Shown piece by piece: positions 3,841-20,585 of a DNA stretch of 34,256 nt; positions within the stretch are counted from its first letter, which is position 1, and each line of letters begins with the position of its first letter. The stretch is from contig JABABK010000020.1 of the NCBI GenBank assembly GCA_014238285.1, positions 1-34,256 on the forward strand, read 5' to 3'. The notes below the pieces were generated by a model. It searched no databases. It was not told the DNA's origin and saw only the letters and a list, made by a program, of their open reading frames with translations. Position numbers and translations under genes: made by a program. The stretch comes from Hellea sp. Lineage in GTDB: Bacteria; Pseudomonadota; Alphaproteobacteria; Caulobacterales; Maricaulaceae.

Positions 3841-5484
3841 ATGTCAACAGCGGGAATTAGCGCAAACAAGTTGGAATTACTGCAAATCGCAAGTGCGGTC
3901 GCGCATGAAAAGTCTATTGATAAGGCCATTGTTTTAGAGGCCATCGAAGAGGCAATCCAGAAGGCAGCTAAACTGCGATATGGTAGTGAACTTGATATTC
4001 GGGCCAATCTTGATCCGGTGACAGGCGAAATGGCGCTTAAACGTGTTGTGACCGTTGTCGAAGACGTTGAAAATGAGTCGACTGAAATTGATCTGCCATC
4101 GGCGAAGCTTGACCACCCTGAAGCCGAAATCGGCTATGAAATTACGACAATTTTACCGCCGATTGAATTTGGCCGTGTTCAGAGTCAGATGGCGAAACAG
4201 GTTATTGTTCAAAAAGTACGTGAAGCGGAACGTGAGCGTCAGTTCAATGAGTATAAGGATCGCGTTGGCGAAATCATCAATGGTATCGTTAAGCGGGTCG
4301 AATATGGTCACATCATTGTGGACCTTGGCCGCGCCGAAGGCGTTATCCGCCGCGAAGAGGCTTTGCCCCGTGAAAACGTTAAAGGCGGCGATCGAATCCG
4401 CGCTTACATTCATGAAGTTCGCCAAGAACCACGTGGTAGCCAGATTTTCCTATCTCGCGCCCATCCACAATTTATGGCTCAGTTGTTTTCACAAGAAGTA
4501 CCTGAAGTTTACGAAGGTATTATTCAGATTGTCTCAGTTGCTCGTGATCCGGGAAGTCGCGCAAAAATCGCCGTTTATTCCAACGATAATTCTATAGACC
4601 CTGTTGGCGCTTGTGTCGGTATGCGCGGTTCTCGCGTTCAAGCCGTCGTGAATGAACTTCAGGGCGAGCGCATCGATATCATCCCTTGGACAGATGATGC
4701 GGCGACTTTTATCGTCAATGCTTTGCAGCCTGCTGAGGTCGCTAAGGTCGTTATTGACGAAGGTGATAACCGTATCGAGGTTGTTGTACCTGATGAGCAA
4801 TTATCTCTAGCGATTGGTCGCCGCGGTCAAAATGTCCGCTTGGCATCTCAGCTTTCGGGTTGGGCTATTGATATCATGACGGAAGAGCAAGAATCTGAAC
4901 GTCGCCAAAAAGAATTCGCAGAACGGTCCCAGTTGTTTATGACCGCGCTTGATGTGGACGAAATGATTGCGCAGCTTCTGGTATCAGAAGGCTTCGAAAC
5001 TTTGGAAGAAGTTGGTTATGTAACTCAAGAGGAAGTCACGGCTATTGAAGGCTTTGACGAAGATACAGCTATTGAGCTTCAGACACGGGCTCGTGAATTC
5101 CTAGAGCGTCAGAAGCAAGAGCAAGACGCAACGCGTAAAGCGGCGGGTGTTGAAGATGCAGTCCTGACTATCGAAGGCGTTACAATGGCTATGGCGGTTG
5201 CCTTTGGTGAAAATGAAGTCAAAACTGTTGAAGATGTTGCGGGGCTTATTCCGGATGATCTTCGCGGTTATACTGAATTGAAGAACGGCGAGAAAGTTCA
5301 CGAGGACGGTATTTTGGAGAGCTTTGGACTGTCAAATCAGGCGGCGACTGACATGATTATGAGGGCCCGCGTTGAAGCTGGCTGGATTGATGCATCAGAG
5401 CTTGAGCCTGAAGTTGAAGAAGAAGTTGCTGTTGAAGCACTCGTTTCAACTGAACCAACAGCTGATAGCGTTTTTAAGAGTTAA
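3841..5484 (+). CDS. nusA: Transcription termination/antitermination factor NusA
   Basis: RNA-polymerase-associated factor controlling pausing, termination and antitermination. The 547 aa contain the N-terminal RNAP-binding domain (about 1-135), an S1 domain (about 143-212, GEIINGIVKRVEYGHIIVDL), KH1 (about 240-300, VGACVGMRGSRVQAVV) and KH2 (about 320-355, LAIGRRGQNVRLASQL). Two helical repeats follow (about 375-435 and 450-520), as in E. coli and alphaproteobacterial NusA, then a short acidic tail. An AGGGAG ribosome binding site precedes the ATG. The TAA stop at 5482-5484 is in the same frame as the following ylxR reading frame. Confidence 0.97.
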   Translation: MSTAGISANKLELLQIASAVAHEKSIDKAIVLEAIEEAIQKAAKLRYGSELDIRANLDPVTGEMALKRVVTVVEDVENESTEIDLPSAKLDHPEAEIGYEITTILPPIEFGRVQSQMAKQVIVQKVREAERERQFNEYKDRVGEIINGIVKRVEYGHIIVDLGRAEGVIRREEALPRENVKGGDRIRAYIHEVRQEPRGSQIFLSRAHPQFMAQLFSQEVPEVYEGIIQIVSVARDPGSRAKIAVYSNDNSIDPVGACVGMRGSRVQAVVNELQGERIDIIPWTDDAATFIVNALQPAEVAKVVIDEGDNRIEVVVPDEQLSLAIGRRGQNVRLASQLSGWAIDIMTEEQESERRQKEFAERSQLFMTALDVDEMIAQLLVSEGFETLEEVGYVTQEEVTAIEGFDEDTAIELQTRAREFLERQKQEQDATRKAAGVEDAVLTIEGVTMAMAVAFGENEVKTVEDVAGLIPDDLRGYTELKNGEKVHEDGILESFGLSNQAATDMIMRARVEAGWIDASELEPEVEEEVAVEALVSTEPTADSVFKS

Positions 5485-15362: not shown

Positions 15363-17963
15363 CTAAGCTATTTGCGAAATTTTAGCCTGTTGGGCTGATT
15401 GGTTTAAAACAAACCGGATGGCGTCAAATAGACCGCGCGCGCTCACAGGCTTTGTTAGAAATACATCAACACCGGCTACCATGCAACGCGCATTGGTTTC
15501 GGGCGCGACATCTGCCGTCACGGCGATGATTGGAATTTGGCTAAAGGATAATTCTGAGCGGCGAATATTCCGAGTGGTCTGAATACCGTTTACGCCGGGC
15601 ATCCGAATATCCATTAGGATCAAATCAAAATGTCTTTGTTGTAAAGTTGAAATGGCATCTGCACCGTTTGGCAAACAGGTCATAGAGCAGCCTTCAGGTT
15701 CCAAAAATGTTTTCAGGACATTTTGGCTGGCCAGGTCATCTTCTATGATCAGGACGTTTTTACCGTTGAGCAGAGGCATGGTCTTGGGAGCTGGCATATA
15801 GGTACTGGTTGCGTTTTGGACGGGTTGGGTTTCAACCAGCATTTGCGGCGCCCGCACCGGCAATACAATGGTAACTTCGGTGCCTTTACCGTCCCTAGAG
15901 TTTACGTCAATGATACCATCCATGATTTCGACAAGGTAATTGGCCAGTGACAAACCTAGGCCATTACCGCCATATTGACGGGTCATAGAGTTGTCAGCCT
16001 GAACAAACGGCTCAAATATGATTTCCATGGTATCAGTATCAATGCCAATACCCGTATCGGCGACGATGCATTTTAACTGATGTAAGTTTGAATTTTCTTC
16101 GGCAGGTTCGCTGGTCACATGAACATGAACGCGGCCGCTGGATGTGAACTTGGCGGCATTAGAAATAAGAATTTCAATACACTGTGTAATACGCTTGGTA
16201 TCGAGGAATAAGTGTTTGGGCAGTACTTCATCGACGTGAACTGTGAAAGCTATGTTTTTGCGTTCGATGACGGGCCGCCATTTGTTTTCTAGTTTTTTGA
16301 CGACTCTCTGAAGTGCCATGACTTCAGGATAAATTTTTAAACTATTGCCATTGACGAGGCTCATATCGAGCATGTTCTCGACCGTCATTAAAAGATCATG
16401 ACCGCATTGCAAGACGGTGGCATTTTGATCCCGAAGTTGTGGACTCGGCGCGGTGCGGGTTAAAACATCGGACAGACCGATAATGCCGTTAAGCGGTGTT
16501 CTTAGCTCATGACTGGCAACGGCGAGGAAGCTGGCCTTGGCTTGCTCGCCCGCGAGTGCTGCTTCCGCCGCTTCGGCGAGCTGTTTTGCGACTTTAGCCC
16601 GGAACCGTAATTGCGAGTTGATCGCGACACTGGCTGCTGCGAGCAGGATGAGTAATGCGATCAGCGCGACGTTTTTCTGTTGTTCCTGCTTTAGGGCTTC
16701 GGCTTTGAGGGCTGCTTGAGTTTCAAGGGCGGTTTCGCGTTCGGCGCGGCGGTCCTCGGAATTTTGCAATGATGCGAGCATTGTTTGGGTTTCATTGTTC
16801 GACAGTTTCAGGAGGTGTCTGACTTCTTCATCTAATCGATTGTTGAATAATTCTATTGCTTTGAGGGTATTGCCGTTACTTAGTTCTATAAGTGCTTGCG
16901 CATATAAAATATTCCGACTTAAACCGGAGTCATTTGGTATGGCGTTTTCAGTTTGTAGGGCTTTTAGAATTTTTACGGCTTCAGAATTATTACCTGTACC
17001 GGCGAGAGCCATAACTTGGTTTAATTTGGAGGCTTGAATAATTGGTCTTAAATTTGCTTCTTTTAGGGACATGTTAGTGTAGTCTAGAGCAATTTGATAT
17101 TCGCCAGTTTTATTGTGAACCGAAGCCATACGCATCGAAGTTAACCCAGGTGTGCTAGCATGATGCTTTTCTTCTAGCCGCAGTAAGGTTTCGCCAAGCG
17201 ATATCGTAGTTTGGTAATCTCCCCATGCTGTAAACGCATACATCAAATTATATAAAACGCTCATCCCATCTAAAGGTAATCCAGTTGTTAGATGTGCGGT
17301 GATTTGAAGTTCGGCGTTCTTTACGCTCAGCTCTAAATTTTTCATGGATGAATAAATAAATGCCATTTCACCACTCGATAGAAGTTTGGCTTCTTGGACA
17401 TATAGATTATCTTGAGTTGGTATAAGTAGGAATGTTTCTTGCGATTTTTGGAGTTCACTGCTTGGATTCGAAAGAAGTGTTTGGTATTCATAGCGAAGAA
17501 TGTTAGCGTGATGTTTTACAAACCAATCATCGGATTCTAGGAATTTCCCCATCTGTTTTTGAATGTTTGTTTTTTGCGCTTCCGATAAGTTGACATGATG
17601 TAACTTCGTTACTGCATCAAACATTCGAGCGATTTCTTGATCTTTTAAGTTGCCGGATTTATCAGCGAGTAATGTGTAGGTTTGTAATATACCTTCTAAT
17701 TCTGACTGGGTTGCACCCTGGAGTGAGTTCATGAAGAAAGTACGTATTATGGCTAGTTGTTCGGTTTCAGAACGGTTTTGATCAACTAAATAATCCTTTA
17801 AGCTATCGTGAAGAATAGTGTTGTCGGATTCGATAGATTTAGCGATGTTTAAGGCTCGTTCGCCAAGGCTATTGTCTAAAGGACCTGCGCTCGCCGTTGA
17901 TACGGATATGAACAATGTTAAAAAGGCTATAACCCAAGTGATTTTTTCAGTAATTAATTTCAC
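15363..17963 (-). CDS. TPR-containing hybrid sensor histidine kinase/response regulator
   Basis: An 866-aa membrane kinase. Residues 1-26 form a signal peptide or first membrane anchor. Residues about 30-400 are all-helical and TPR-like (LYNLMYAFTAWGDYQTTISL; NKTGEYQIALDYTNMSLKEA). A coiled coil (400-430) and a membrane helix (431-450) follow. HisKA has phospho-acceptor His485 (ASHELRTPLNG). The ATPase domain has N602 (SNAAKF), DTGIGID and GGNGLGLSLA. The C-terminal receiver spans about 736-853, with Asp785 (LILMDIRMP) and Lys838 (LTKP). The sensor domain is therefore predicted periplasmic. The start codon is GTG at 17963 with no clear Shine-Dalgarno; no alternative in-frame start keeps the signal peptide. 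There is no partner regulator or Hpt protein in the window. It lies just downstream of the double-glycine peptide gene and exporter, on the same strand but behind a strong terminator. Confidence 0.92.
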   Translation of the reverse strand: MKLITEKITWVIAFLTLFISVSTASAGPLDNSLGERALNIAKSIESDNTILHDSLKDYLVDQNRSETEQLAIIRTFFMNSLQGATQSELEGILQTYTLLADKSGNLKDQEIARMFDAVTKLHHVNLSEAQKTNIQKQMGKFLESDDWFVKHHANILRYEYQTLLSNPSSELQKSQETFLLIPTQDNLYVQEAKLLSSGEMAFIYSSMKNLELSVKNAELQITAHLTTGLPLDGMSVLYNLMYAFTAWGDYQTTISLGETLLRLEEKHHASTPGLTSMRMASVHNKTGEYQIALDYTNMSLKEANLRPIIQASKLNQVMALAGTGNNSEAVKILKALQTENAIPNDSGLSRNILYAQALIELSNGNTLKAIELFNNRLDEEVRHLLKLSNNETQTMLASLQNSEDRRAERETALETQAALKAEALKQEQQKNVALIALLILLAAASVAINSQLRFRAKVAKQLAEAAEAALAGEQAKASFLAVASHELRTPLNGIIGLSDVLTRTAPSPQLRDQNATVLQCGHDLLMTVENMLDMSLVNGNSLKIYPEVMALQRVVKKLENKWRPVIERKNIAFTVHVDEVLPKHLFLDTKRITQCIEILISNAAKFTSSGRVHVHVTSEPAEENSNLHQLKCIVADTGIGIDTDTMEIIFEPFVQADNSMTRQYGGNGLGLSLANYLVEIMDGIIDVNSRDGKGTEVTIVLPVRAPQMLVETQPVQNATSTYMPAPKTMPLLNGKNVLIIEDDLASQNVLKTFLEPEGCSMTCLPNGADAISTLQQRHFDLILMDIRMPGVNGIQTTRNIRRSELSFSQIPIIAVTADVAPETNARCMVAGVDVFLTKPVSARGLFDAIRFVLNQSAQQAKISQIA

Positions 17964-18018
17964 ATAGTAAGTGTGTCAAAATAGTATTAACAAATTATTT
18001 TGCATACGATTTATAGGC

Positions 18019-18052
18019 AAAAAAATAACCCGCTAAAAGCGGGCTATTTTTT
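18019..18052 (-). terminator. Strong terminator abutting the double-glycine peptide gene
   Basis: Read on the minus strand, AAAAAATAGCCCGC, a TTTTA loop and GCGGGTTATTTTTTT form a long stem with a GC core (18029-18033 with 18039-18043) flanked by A and T tracts. It is nearly symmetrical and could work in both directions. The TAA of the 21-codon peptide gene (18051-18053) lies within the tract, so this is the end of that small transcript and separates it from the kinase gene. Confidence 0.9.
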
Positions 18053-18116
18053 AGTAATCTACTACTACTTTGCCACCAACGACAACTTCTATTTCTTCAT
18101 GAGTAAGTTCACGCAT
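18051..18116 (-). CDS. 21-aa double-glycine leader peptide precursor
   Basis: A very short gene encoding MRELTHEEIEVVVGG followed by KVVVDY and a stop. The first 15 residues match the double-glycine leader consensus of class II bacteriocin/colicin V-type precursors (MREL-x-EEI-x-x-V-x-GG), the substrates of C39-peptidase ABC exporters. Such an exporter is encoded 197 bp upstream on the same strand. Cleavage after GG would release a hexapeptide. A ribosome binding site GGGAA lies 8-9 nt before the ATG. The stop codon is embedded in a strong terminator, so the gene looks complete rather than cut short. A signalling peptide is the more natural idea than a bacteriocin, given only six residues, but this is inference. 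It could also be a decayed precursor. Confidence 0.72.
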   Translation of the reverse strand: MRELTHEEIEVVVGGKVVVDY

Positions 18117-18143
18117 AGAACAGTTTCCCAATTAGAGTTTATG

Positions 18144-18159
18144 GTAACTATATCGTTAC
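18144..18159. promoter_or_regulatory. Candidate operator upstream of the peptide gene
   Basis: GTAAC and GTTAC arms flank a 6-bp AT-rich centre, a 16-bp dyad with two central mismatches, lying 27 bp before the ATG of the double-glycine peptide. On the minus strand TATAGT inside the dyad could be a -10 box, which would make this a repressor or activator site. The surrounding 197-bp gap to the ABC gene is AT-rich, and I see no other ORF in it. Confidence 0.35.
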
Positions 18160-18313
18160 TACAGACATTAAGGCTGATTCTGATTCGATTAATCAAGTAT
18201 TAATTAAGGTTAACGCTGCTATTTTGGCACAATTTCTTGATTTTTTCGCAGTTTTAGAGAGTTTTAGCCAGAAAATTCAATGAGTTAGCGAGTGTGTTAA
18301 ATTTTTCAACAAG

Positions 18314-20371
18314 CTAAAGTTTCATAACTTTGTTGGAGGCTTTTATGAAGGCCGGGCGGTGCGCGACGATAATTCGGGTCATTTTCATGGACTTAATGAC
18401 TTCAACGATTTGTTTTTCCGTTTCTTGATCCAGATTGGCCGTCCCTTCATCCAAGAATAATAGGCGGGGTTTATGATAAAGCGCGCGGGCTAACAGGATG
18501 CGCTGCTTTTGTCCGCCGGATAATATTGACCCCATATCCCCGATCAAAGCGTCATAACCCATAGGGATTGCTAGGACTTCCTTGTGAATTTGGGCTGCTT
18601 TAGCAGCCTCGACAATGGCCTTCATACTCATGTCTTGATCAAAGAAACTGATGTTCTCGGCGATGCTGCCTGTCAGCAAGCGATCATCTTGCATAACCAC
18701 GCCGATTATTTCCCGCCAGCGATTTTTGCCAAATTTAGCGAGATCAATGCCATCAATTTGAATGGCGCCTTGTTCGGCTTGATAAAGCCCCAGAAGCAAT
18801 TTCATCAAAGTTGTCTTCCCGCCGCCAGATTTACCCGTCAACGTCACCATCTCGCCGGCTTTGACAGACAGATTGAAGTCCTGCAAAATCCAAGGATCCA
18901 TGGGCGTATACCGAAAGGAGAGGCCCTTAATATCTATATTGCCCTTAATAGCTTGTGGAGCCACGGTTAAAATGTTGGTTATTGGTTCTGTCTCGGCAAA
19001 AATGATATCCGCCAAACGGTCCAAATGCAGGGACAGCAACCGAAACTCAATGCCCTTTTGTAAAAGCTGTGTGACGCTATCCGTAAAATACTGCCGATAG
19101 GCCAGAAAGGCCAGGAGCATGCCGACGGTAAAAGGCGTGCCGTCCATCATTATCTTGGCCGCCGCATAAACGACCAATATGATTTGAAGGCCCGTCAGTA
19201 AGGTCTCTGCAAATTTCTGCGCGATCATCCAGCGCCCGTAAGCAATATTGGCGTTGATGAAGAGCGTATAAAGGTTACGCCAAGAGGTTTCGCGCTGAGC
19301 TTCGCGGCTAAACAGTTTAATGGTTGTACTGGCGCGGATACTTTCGATCAAATGGGTTTTCTCTTCGGCTTCGGCGTAAATGGCTTCTTCTTGTGTGCGG
19401 CGAATATTGGGGTAAATCCAAAGGGTCACAATAATAAGAATCAAGACCGATACTAAAACGATACTGGCCAGTAGAGGAGAATATAAGAACATCACGATCA
19501 GCATTAAAATAGCCATGACGCCGTCGATTAGGATGCCGACGATAGATTGCGTTAAGGCATCTTGAATAGGCCGGGTCGAGTTCATTCTAGAGATTAAATC
19601 GCCCACATGTCGTTTTTCAAAATAACTTGTCGGTAAATGGATCAGATGACGGAACACGTTTCCGATCATCTGGGCGCTCATTTGATTACCGTAAATCAAA
19701 ATAGCCCAGCTTCTTGTCGCTTCGGCAATGGCGCGCAATATGGCCAAAGCTCCAAAGCCTAGGAGCAGACCCCATAAAAGGCTCGTATCATTTTTCGGTA
19801 GAACGCCATCAATAACGACTTGCAAATAAAACGGCGCCGTTAAAACAATGATTTGCAGAATGATTGAAAGCGTTAGCGTTTGGAATAGCGCCCGTTTTAG
19901 CCCAACTAATTTATCCCACAGTAAAGATAGATGCGGTTTTAACCGCGCATTAATCGGCGAAAACTCAGCAACAGGGGAAAGTTCGAGGGCGACGCCAGAG
20001 AAATGTTTCGATAAACGCTCAAGCGGCATGACCCTAAGCCCTAAAGCCGGGTCATGGATGTGGGCTTTGTTGCCTTTGATTTTGGTTAGGACGACATAGT
20101 GATTTAAGTCCCAGTGCAAAATGGCTGGGAGTTGGAGTTGGGGTAGATGTTCCATATCCAGCCTCAGAGGGCGTGGGGCCAAATCTAATGCTCCGGCAAT
20201 TTGCATCACGGATTTAAGGGAGGCGCCAGCTAGTGAAATAACGTGATCTCGTCTTAAAATATTCAAATCAACGTTATGTCCCCAATAACGGGCAATCATG
20301 GCAATACAGGCTAGGCCGCATTCCGCGACTTCTGTTTGAAGTATAACTGGCGTGCGGCGCGATTTAAACAT
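18314..20371 (-). CDS. C39 peptidase-containing ABC exporter (RaxB/CvaB type)
   Basis: A 685-aa bacteriocin-type exporter that cleaves double-glycine leaders and secretes the cargo. The N-terminal C39 peptidase (about 1-130) keeps Cys18 (AECGLACIAMI), His91 (LNHYVVL) and Asp107 (IHDPALG), so unlike HlyB it should be proteolytically active. A six-helix ABC membrane domain follows (about 155-435). The ATPase has Walker A GKSGGGKTT at 513-521, signature LSGGQ at 617-621, Walker B LLFLDEG with catalytic Glu642, and H-loop His671. The protein ends soon after the H-loop (NKVMKL), about 15-30 residues shorter than many relatives. Its start overlaps the 73-aa membrane stub gene by 8 nt. The obvious substrate candidate is the 21-aa peptide encoded downstream. 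A full adaptor and TolC are not in the window. Confidence 0.95.
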   Translation of the reverse strand: MFKSRRTPVILQTEVAECGLACIAMIARYWGHNVDLNILRRDHVISLAGASLKSVMQIAGALDLAPRPLRLDMEHLPQLQLPAILHWDLNHYVVLTKIKGNKAHIHDPALGLRVMPLERLSKHFSGVALELSPVAEFSPINARLKPHLSLLWDKLVGLKRALFQTLTLSIILQIIVLTAPFYLQVVIDGVLPKNDTSLLWGLLLGFGALAILRAIAEATRSWAILIYGNQMSAQMIGNVFRHLIHLPTSYFEKRHVGDLISRMNSTRPIQDALTQSIVGILIDGVMAILMLIVMFLYSPLLASIVLVSVLILIIVTLWIYPNIRRTQEEAIYAEAEEKTHLIESIRASTTIKLFSREAQRETSWRNLYTLFINANIAYGRWMIAQKFAETLLTGLQIILVVYAAAKIMMDGTPFTVGMLLAFLAYRQYFTDSVTQLLQKGIEFRLLSLHLDRLADIIFAETEPITNILTVAPQAIKGNIDIKGLSFRYTPMDPWILQDFNLSVKAGEMVTLTGKSGGGKTTLMKLLLGLYQAEQGAIQIDGIDLAKFGKNRWREIIGVVMQDDRLLTGSIAENISFFDQDMSMKAIVEAAKAAQIHKEVLAIPMGYDALIGDMGSILSGGQKQRILLARALYHKPRLLFLDEGTANLDQETEKQIVEVIKSMKMTRIIVAHRPAFIKASNKVMKL

Positions 20372-20585
20372 TTGTGCCCCGGGATAGGAGCCATTTTAGA
20401 ATAGAAACAGGACCAGCGTCTGTTTCAACTTGGCCGATGAGCATAATCCCGACGAGGGAGACGAAAACGGCAATCAGTAAGAGCGTAATAATCCAGCTGG
20501 CGGGCGGCGCTGATAAAATCACCTCGCCATATAATCCGCGATATTGGTGTTCTAAGGCTTCGTCTCTGTATAATTTTTCAGTCAT
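20364..20585 (-). CDS. Small membrane protein resembling the N-terminal stub of an HlyD-type adaptor
   Basis: A 73-aa protein: a short cytoplasmic part (LYRDEALEHQYRGLYGEVIL), one transmembrane helix at about residues 32-52 (WIITLLLIAVFVSLVGIMLI), then about 20 residues ending ILKWLLSRGTNV. The RxEALEHQ...LYGEV pattern before the helix is what starts HlyD-family adaptors of C39 exporters. The lipoyl and coiled-coil parts that would reach TolC are absent. The stop overlaps the exporter start by 8 nt, so the two are translationally coupled, and no remaining adaptor sequence is seen between them. It is either an eroded adaptor or a deliberately short accessory subunit. The ribosome binding site is poor. 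Confidence 0.65.
   Translation of the reverse strand: MTEKLYRDEALEHQYRGLYGEVILSAPPASWIITLLLIAVFVSLVGIMLIGQVETDAGPVSILKWLLSRGTNV

Follow-up and report, generated by a model that had tools for sequence, protein, structure and literature searches.

In a 34,256-nucleotide (nt) contig of Hellea sp. (JABABK010000020.1; the whole contig is referred to below as the window), a minus-strand micro-gene of 21 codons, too small for most annotation to retain, lies between the genes for a C39 peptidase-containing ABC exporter and a hybrid histidine kinase. The results of this analysis suggest that this micro-gene encodes a pheromone, a hexa- or heptapeptide that would be exported by the C39 exporter and sensed by a periplasmic tetratricopeptide repeat (TPR) domain of the kinase. 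A probability of about 0.75 is given to this reading, in which secretion, binding and output are the steps that we infer. The features concerned are collected in the table below.

Translation of the minus strand at 18051-18116 gives MRELTHEEIEVVVGGKVVVDY and then a stop. A sequence-only reading of the contig had taken this frame for a complete gene, and its surroundings bear this out: GGGAAA lies 7 nt before the ATG, purine-rich sites being found upstream of the micro-gene in the other compared loci too, and the stop is followed by a hairpin, CCCGC-TTTTA-GCGGG, and a run of T (the site scan reported this hairpin for the plus strand only). An alternative in-frame TTG upstream of the ATG would give a product of 26 residues, but the ATG is favoured, since an alignment of 24 peptides has M1, R2 and L4 throughout. 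In the same peptides, M1, L4, G14 and G15 of the leader are invariant and V12 nearly so. The leader ends in a double glycine (GG) in all but one of 42 loci. The only precursor with GA (locus L203, 3193-3258, plus strand) reads MRELTLEEIEVVTGAGPVIDW. The residues at -15, -12, -7 and -4 in the window are M, L, I and V, and hydrophobic residues at these positions are described for C39 substrates in an excerpt of PMC7018657. The precursor, as had been proposed, fits the sequence definition of a C39 exporter substrate, and would be cleaved after GG. Below the NCBIfam cut-offs, the window peptide scored 13.4 bits with pheromone_VP1 (cut-off 85) and 13.1 with the lacticin 481 family (cut-off 46).

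The family was delimited by an exporter search across 41 genomes and a motif scan of the exporter flanks. A short fusion-protein-like open reading frame (ORF), the exporter, the micro-gene and the kinase are arranged alike, in order as well as orientation, in the window and in five other genomes, and a profile built from the six peptides was searched in 137 genomes of the window's family, 45 of which match at E <= 0.1. Five matches were left out, four being leaders of longer frames (G104, G108, G111, G146) and one being cut by a contig end (G052); the 40 kept, with G118 and G121 added by inspection, make 42 genomes with a short precursor, consisting of a 15-residue double-glycine leader and a very short core. 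G121 was counted despite 31 residues after GG without clean repeats (L220 / L076), and may be decayed or of another kind. Named carriers are Hellea balneolensis DSM 19091, Litorimonas cladophorae KCTC 23968, Algimonas arctica KCTC 32513 and Robiginitomaculum antarcticum DSM 21748, so named records place the micro-gene in four genera; Algimonas porphyrae is described as a member of the Robiginitomaculaceae, Caulobacterales, in an excerpt of PMC11556061. In a sample of 398 genomes of the order, 38 match at E <= 0.01, the seven outside the family being leaders of frames of 88-236 residues, and among 385 genomes sampled from the class the window's own is the sole match at E <= 0.001.

Thirty-nine loci were compared together, and they contain 38 distinct precursors. 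Leader codons give a ratio of nonsynonymous to synonymous change (pN/pS) of 0.31 in frame; read in the other two frames, they give 0.69 and 1.39. In 34 of the 39 loci a terminator-like hairpin is found no more than 110 nt from the stop, as against 2.5 loci on average and 6 at most in shuffles; conservation of GG beside C39 exporters, terminator position and codon changes were the checks that the sequence-only reading had proposed, and all three came out in its favour. Thirty of the 39 have single cores of 5-8 residues, one has a core of 9 and one of 11, and seven are multi-copy, in line with the earlier suggestion that so short a product would suit a signal. The common form of the core is xPI(I/V)(I/V), after which come an acidic or polar residue and, in many cores, F (MPIIIDF, NPIVIDF, APIIVDF, LPIVIEN); the cores of the window, KVVVDY, and of two genus mates, KRLKIKV and KIVVD, depart from it.

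Nine precursors carry two to five tandem cores. Those among the 39 loci have three to five copies (e.g., IPVIDF x4, LPIDIEV x3, RSIKT x4), and one consists of four copies of RGVVLAE and one of RGVVLKD; FPIDIEV occurs twice in R. antarcticum and LPADIEW four times in G118. In eight of the nine, all but G118, neighbouring copies differ by 6.5 nonsynonymous changes as against 56.5 synonymous ones (pN/pS about 0.04); if every change is counted as an independent event, the binomial P is about 1e-27. Since tandem copies differ almost only synonymously, the core is the selected unit, and it is taken with high confidence to be the functional one. The family profile matches, leader-codon pN/pS and tandem-core pN/pS rule out a chance ORF, and on this comparative evidence the micro-ORF is a real gene with near certainty. 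The position of the hairpin, which directly follows the stop and precedes the kinase, would also suit a transcript serving as leader RNA or attenuator for the kinase, with the frame as a by-product. This is very improbable: residues are kept while synonymous sites change, cores are repeated in tandem, leader presence tracks exporter presence (see below), and Rfam gives no match at the gathering threshold in 17900-18400. An element acting as RNA only was rejected.

In the exporter, residues Q12, C18, H91 and D107, which we take to be catalytic, are invariant in six aligned homologues. It adjoins the precursor upstream in 34 of the 42 loci, where GG peptide, C39 exporter and histidine kinase stand together; the contig ends before the exporter position in G119 and G076, and in G001, G003, G006, G007, G009 and G010 the exporter is not adjoining, being found elsewhere in five of the six at 55-59% identity. 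Export of the micro-gene product by this C39 exporter is highly likely. Upstream of the exporter, where a membrane fusion protein might be expected, there is a stub in every one of 32 loci where exporter and micro-gene adjoin (as pieces or cuts at L181 of G135 and L189 of G052). Twenty-six aligned stubs have 63-88 residues, that of R. antarcticum, with no ATG in the expected place, being left out; the stub of the window has no Pfam match at E <= 0.001 and no NCBIfam match at E <= 0.1. An ORF of 321-477 residues, in many cases with an HlyD-like start, precedes 24 of 30 exporters that are more distant; the other six lack it. Several more distant C39 exporters also lie near longer GG peptides of 64-128 residues (L036 11233-11439, L041 6348-6572 and 6954-7148, L046 15143-15529).

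With no more than a transmembrane (TM) stub left of the fusion-protein partner, an outer-membrane duct is doubtful and release into the periplasm the likelier course, although we would give such release, rather than passage through a duct, only even odds; a fusion protein may be encoded elsewhere in the genome. The stub and the predicted periplasmic sensor would also fit a core that stayed in the periplasm of its producer and informed the kinase of exporter activity, growth state or the condition of the envelope, and HetC, likewise without a neighbouring fusion protein, is proposed in an excerpt of PMC10986499 to deliver to the periplasm. Such self-sensing is possible but rather unlikely: cores diversify between species, as the number of distinct precursors indicates and as private signals would (drift would have the same effect), and tandem copies raise the dose, as they do in RRNPPA propeptides according to part of PMC9765709. 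An antimicrobial or other secreted effector of microcin type, exported by the C39 protein and merely controlled by the kinase, is improbable. C39 exporters of Gram-negatives are best known for toxin export (PMC10986499, in excerpt) and several of the more distant exporters do adjoin the longer GG peptides, but the cores have 5-8 aliphatic residues, usually with an acidic end, and the kinase is retained where the exporter sits elsewhere. Moreover, a gene-by-gene comparison of 20 loci, limited to ORFs of 90 residues or more, left the exporter and kinase as the sole genes common to all, with no common immunity gene (a smaller one would escape).

The kinase lies next to the precursor and co-oriented with it in 40 of the 42 loci. 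Thirty-six of these kinases were found by tblastn and one (L176, with a run of N where the kinase domain would be) by the sensor profile (E 6.2e-11), to which G117, G118 and G121 are added; the other two loci are cut by contig ends, 137 nt downstream of the precursor in G120 and, in G007, within an ORF of the same orientation that begins like a signal peptide and matches no family. The pair of micro-gene and kinase is kept apart from the exporter in G001, G003, G006, G009 and G010; Pfam kinase domains are found in the last four of these, G001 having TPR matches only, and in G001, G003 and G009 the pair is flanked by frames that we take to be mutL-like and rsmD-like. The kinase of the window begins with what looks like a signal peptide, and some 400 residues separate this from a TM segment; aligned orthologues likewise have such a start and a TM segment after the sensor, as judged by eye. 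The model of the window sensor, made from 22 aligned sequences, is all-helical (mean predicted local distance difference test score 86.5). Its Foldseek matches in the PDB at E <= 0.001 are a consensus TPR, the O-GlcNAc transferase TPR, Rap of pLS20 with Phr* (6t46, rank 3) and P58(IPK); AimR with its peptide ranks seventh (TMq 0.52), and 17 chains among the 50 matches listed are Rap, AimR or NprR. The model supports a TPR solenoid that is compatible with a pheromone groove, without proving one, and the adjoining kinase is likely to be the peptide receptor.

Further insight into the partnership is provided by genomes found with the sensor profile, which matches 43 of the 137 family genomes at E <= 1e-10. 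Four were set aside for having less than 100 nt upstream of the sensor kinase (G044, G070, G071, G081); of the other 39, 36 have leader-bearing precursors and three have leaderless ORFs before the kinase, namely MTKNPIIIG (GTG start, G043), MSIRKQPIVDF (G058) and MRGPIIIL (G072). These ORFs of 8-11 codons have the core and no GG leader, and are preceded by a Shine-Dalgarno-like site and followed by a terminator-like hairpin. This pattern, set after seeing them, arises 8, 7 and 18 times when the three stretches are put through 20,000 Markov shuffles. None of the three genomes has an exporter of more than 39% identity at E <= 1e-60, the absence being weakest for G043 (73% complete), whereas 41 of the 42 leader-bearing genomes have one of 55% identity or more (none was found in the remaining one, G007, 75% complete). 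The association has a probability of 4/14,190, or about 3e-4, on the assumption of independent genomes, which they are not. As far as these genomes indicate, the leader goes with the exporter and the core goes with the kinase. Beyond what the sequence-only reading had claimed, the micro-gene has its most constant partner, and its product its likely receptor, in the kinase, the fusion protein is only a stub, and the multi-copy and leaderless relatives single out the core.

Several observations count against the proposal of an exported peptide sensed by the TPR kinase. The way out of the cytoplasm of the leaderless peptides has no explanation in the model, and the window's own core lacks the common proline. 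The TPR assignment of the sensor has its weak sides: generic TPRs rank first and second in Foldseek, only four matches reach E <= 0.001, Pfam matches to TPRs are weak (TPR_14 at E <= 0.1 in 6 of 22 sensors) and the sensors of G003, G006 and G009 have no match to the sensor profile at E <= 1. Core and sensor distances are uncorrelated beyond phylogeny in 21 loci (partial r 0.01 given the exporter, p 0.45; a test of low power, the cores being very short), and core distances correlate at least as well with the exporter and the kinase domain (r 0.20 each). A promoter scan gave no minus-strand site and one plus-strand match, at expectation.

The proposed pheromone would act as follows. The micro-gene would encode the precursor, the C39 domain of the exporter would cut it after GG, and the core would cross the inner membrane and be released into the periplasm. 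With its mass of about 0.7 kDa, the core could pass out of and into cells by way of porins; it would bind the groove of the TPR domain and switch the hybrid kinase, which would signal via its receiver to an output, perhaps with feedback on the micro-gene. The full form of this proposal is quorum sensing by a linear hexa- or heptapeptide in Gram-negatives, with a periplasmic RRNPP-like TPR-kinase receptor, a dedicated exporter without a duct and porin passage between cells. It might equally prove right or wrong, because it needs both periplasmic release and cell-cell communication, each about even or somewhat better.

An inverted repeat, GTAAC-N6-GTTAC, picked after seeing the sequences, occurs without mismatch in three of 39 loci, about 40 nt before the start, the window and two others (0.02 expected), and with at most one mismatch within 160 nt upstream in eight of 39 (0.19 expected); as an operator it is a lead only. 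A TGTGG box recurs before the terminator hairpin, e.g., in L033, L192, L193, L194 and L198 (by eye). In the 20 loci compared gene by gene, a PhzF-like gene directly follows the kinase in seven (L067, L068, L073, L075, L076, L110, L121), and a relative of the window's DUF11-type protein, a possible output gene, lies near the cassette in five; Pfam was run on four of the seven PhzF-like and three of the five DUF11-like neighbours. Outside the family, the sensor profile matches 13 of the 398 genomes of the order sample, and inspection by eye of 400 nt upstream of these 13 kinases showed no GG or xPI(I/V) micro-ORF. Seven of them (L233, L235, L238, L239, L240, L241, L244) follow a frame that is presumably aroA-like, and may be peptide-free relatives of the receptor.

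Features of the peptide, exporter and kinase cassette in the window and of the leaderless micro-ORFs in related genomes
Feature	Position	Strand	Basis or remark
DUF11-type protein, 1702 residues	10246-15354	+	DUF11, SpaA-like and DUF481 matches; convergent with kinase
Hybrid sensor kinase, 866 residues, GTG start, likely receptor	15363..17963	-	signal-peptide-like start, sensor, TM, HisKA, HATPase_c, receiver
Sensor domain, predicted TPR solenoid, predicted periplasmic	16677..17885	-	structure model, Pfam, Foldseek
Terminator-like hairpin with T run, in the gap separating micro-gene and kinase	18019..18050	-	read in sequence
Micro-gene, 21-codon double-glycine precursor (stop included)	18051..18116	-	ORF translation and homologues
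Predicted mature hexapeptide KVVVDY	18054..18071	-	translation; tandem copies in relatives
Leader, 15 residues, MRELTHEEIEVVVGG	18072..18116	-	24 aligned peptides; C39-substrate hydrophobic positions
Ribosome-binding-like GGGAAA	18124..18129	-	read in sequence
Inverted repeat GTAAC-N6-GTTAC, candidate operator	18144..18159	-	picked after seeing sequences
C39 peptidase-containing ABC exporter, 685 residues	18314..20371	-	Pfam Peptidase_C39 E 2.2e-33; alignment
Single-TM stub, 73 residues, like an HlyD-type N-terminus	20364..20585	-	end overlaps exporter start
Leaderless micro-ORF just before TPR kinase	L212 ~4243-4272	+	
Leaderless micro-ORFs just before TPR kinase	L214, L217	-	

Such a family would give a group of marine Gram-negatives a peptide language with readable words (MPIIIDF, NPIVIDF, APIIVDF) and a predicted receptor beside each. 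Named strains carry the micro-gene, so that peptide, receptor and exporter are directly testable, and multi-copy, leaderless and exporter-unlinked variants are available in nature. Genes of 8-23 codons can be found by their neighbours; if real, the leaderless ones would be among the shortest proposed, the precursors otherwise carrying one to five copies of the core. Among the titles and abstract openings listed by searches of open-licence literature, a scope outside which most subscription papers lie, none describes this system or its combination of parts.

HetC of Nostoc resembles the exporter described here in being of C39 type without a neighbouring fusion-protein gene and in its proposed periplasmic delivery, but it has a cNMP domain, and no substrate near HetC is identified in the excerpted text (PMC10986499). 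RtgS/RtgR of pneumococcus combines a short pheromone near a C39 exporter with an RRNPP-type regulator that reads it. RtgS was, however, rejected as a precedent for a GG pheromone, as its autoinduction needs PptAB as well as Ami, and it is SHP-like and not counted among the GG peptides in that part of the source (PMC7018657). Class II microcin and colicin V exporters share the double-glycine leader, the C39 exporter and a Gram-negative host. Class II microcin systems have a long mature peptide and a full-length fusion protein, whereas single cores here have 5-11 residues and every exporter-linked locus has the stub. The streptococcal ComC-ComAB-ComD system has the same three parts, a double-glycine pheromone, a C39 exporter and a membrane histidine kinase. 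It is, however, Gram-positive, its mature competence-stimulating peptide, at about 17 residues, is longer than the cores here, and ComD has a polytopic membrane sensor and is not known to have a receiver or a TPR.

The pheromones of RRNPPA systems (Rap-Phr, NprR-NprX, PlcR-PapR, AimR-AimP) have 5-8 residues. As in those systems, a short linear ribosomal peptide is encoded here beside a putative TPR receptor, with a predicted match in fold that generic TPRs share. Linear ribosomal pheromones of such size with TPR receptors are described from Firmicutes in excerpts of PMC9765709, in which the receptors are cytoplasmic and the peptide is re-internalised. Here, in contrast, the TPR domain is predicted to be periplasmic and belongs to a kinase, the host is Gram-negative and the precursor has a C39 leader. 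The receptor is not filed as RRNPPA because it has neither a cytoplasmic location (a signal-peptide-like start and a TM segment after the sensor, by eye) nor a helix-turn-helix or Rap-type effector, that of the window having HisKA, HATPase_c and receiver domains; it may nevertheless work like the RRNPPA receptors.
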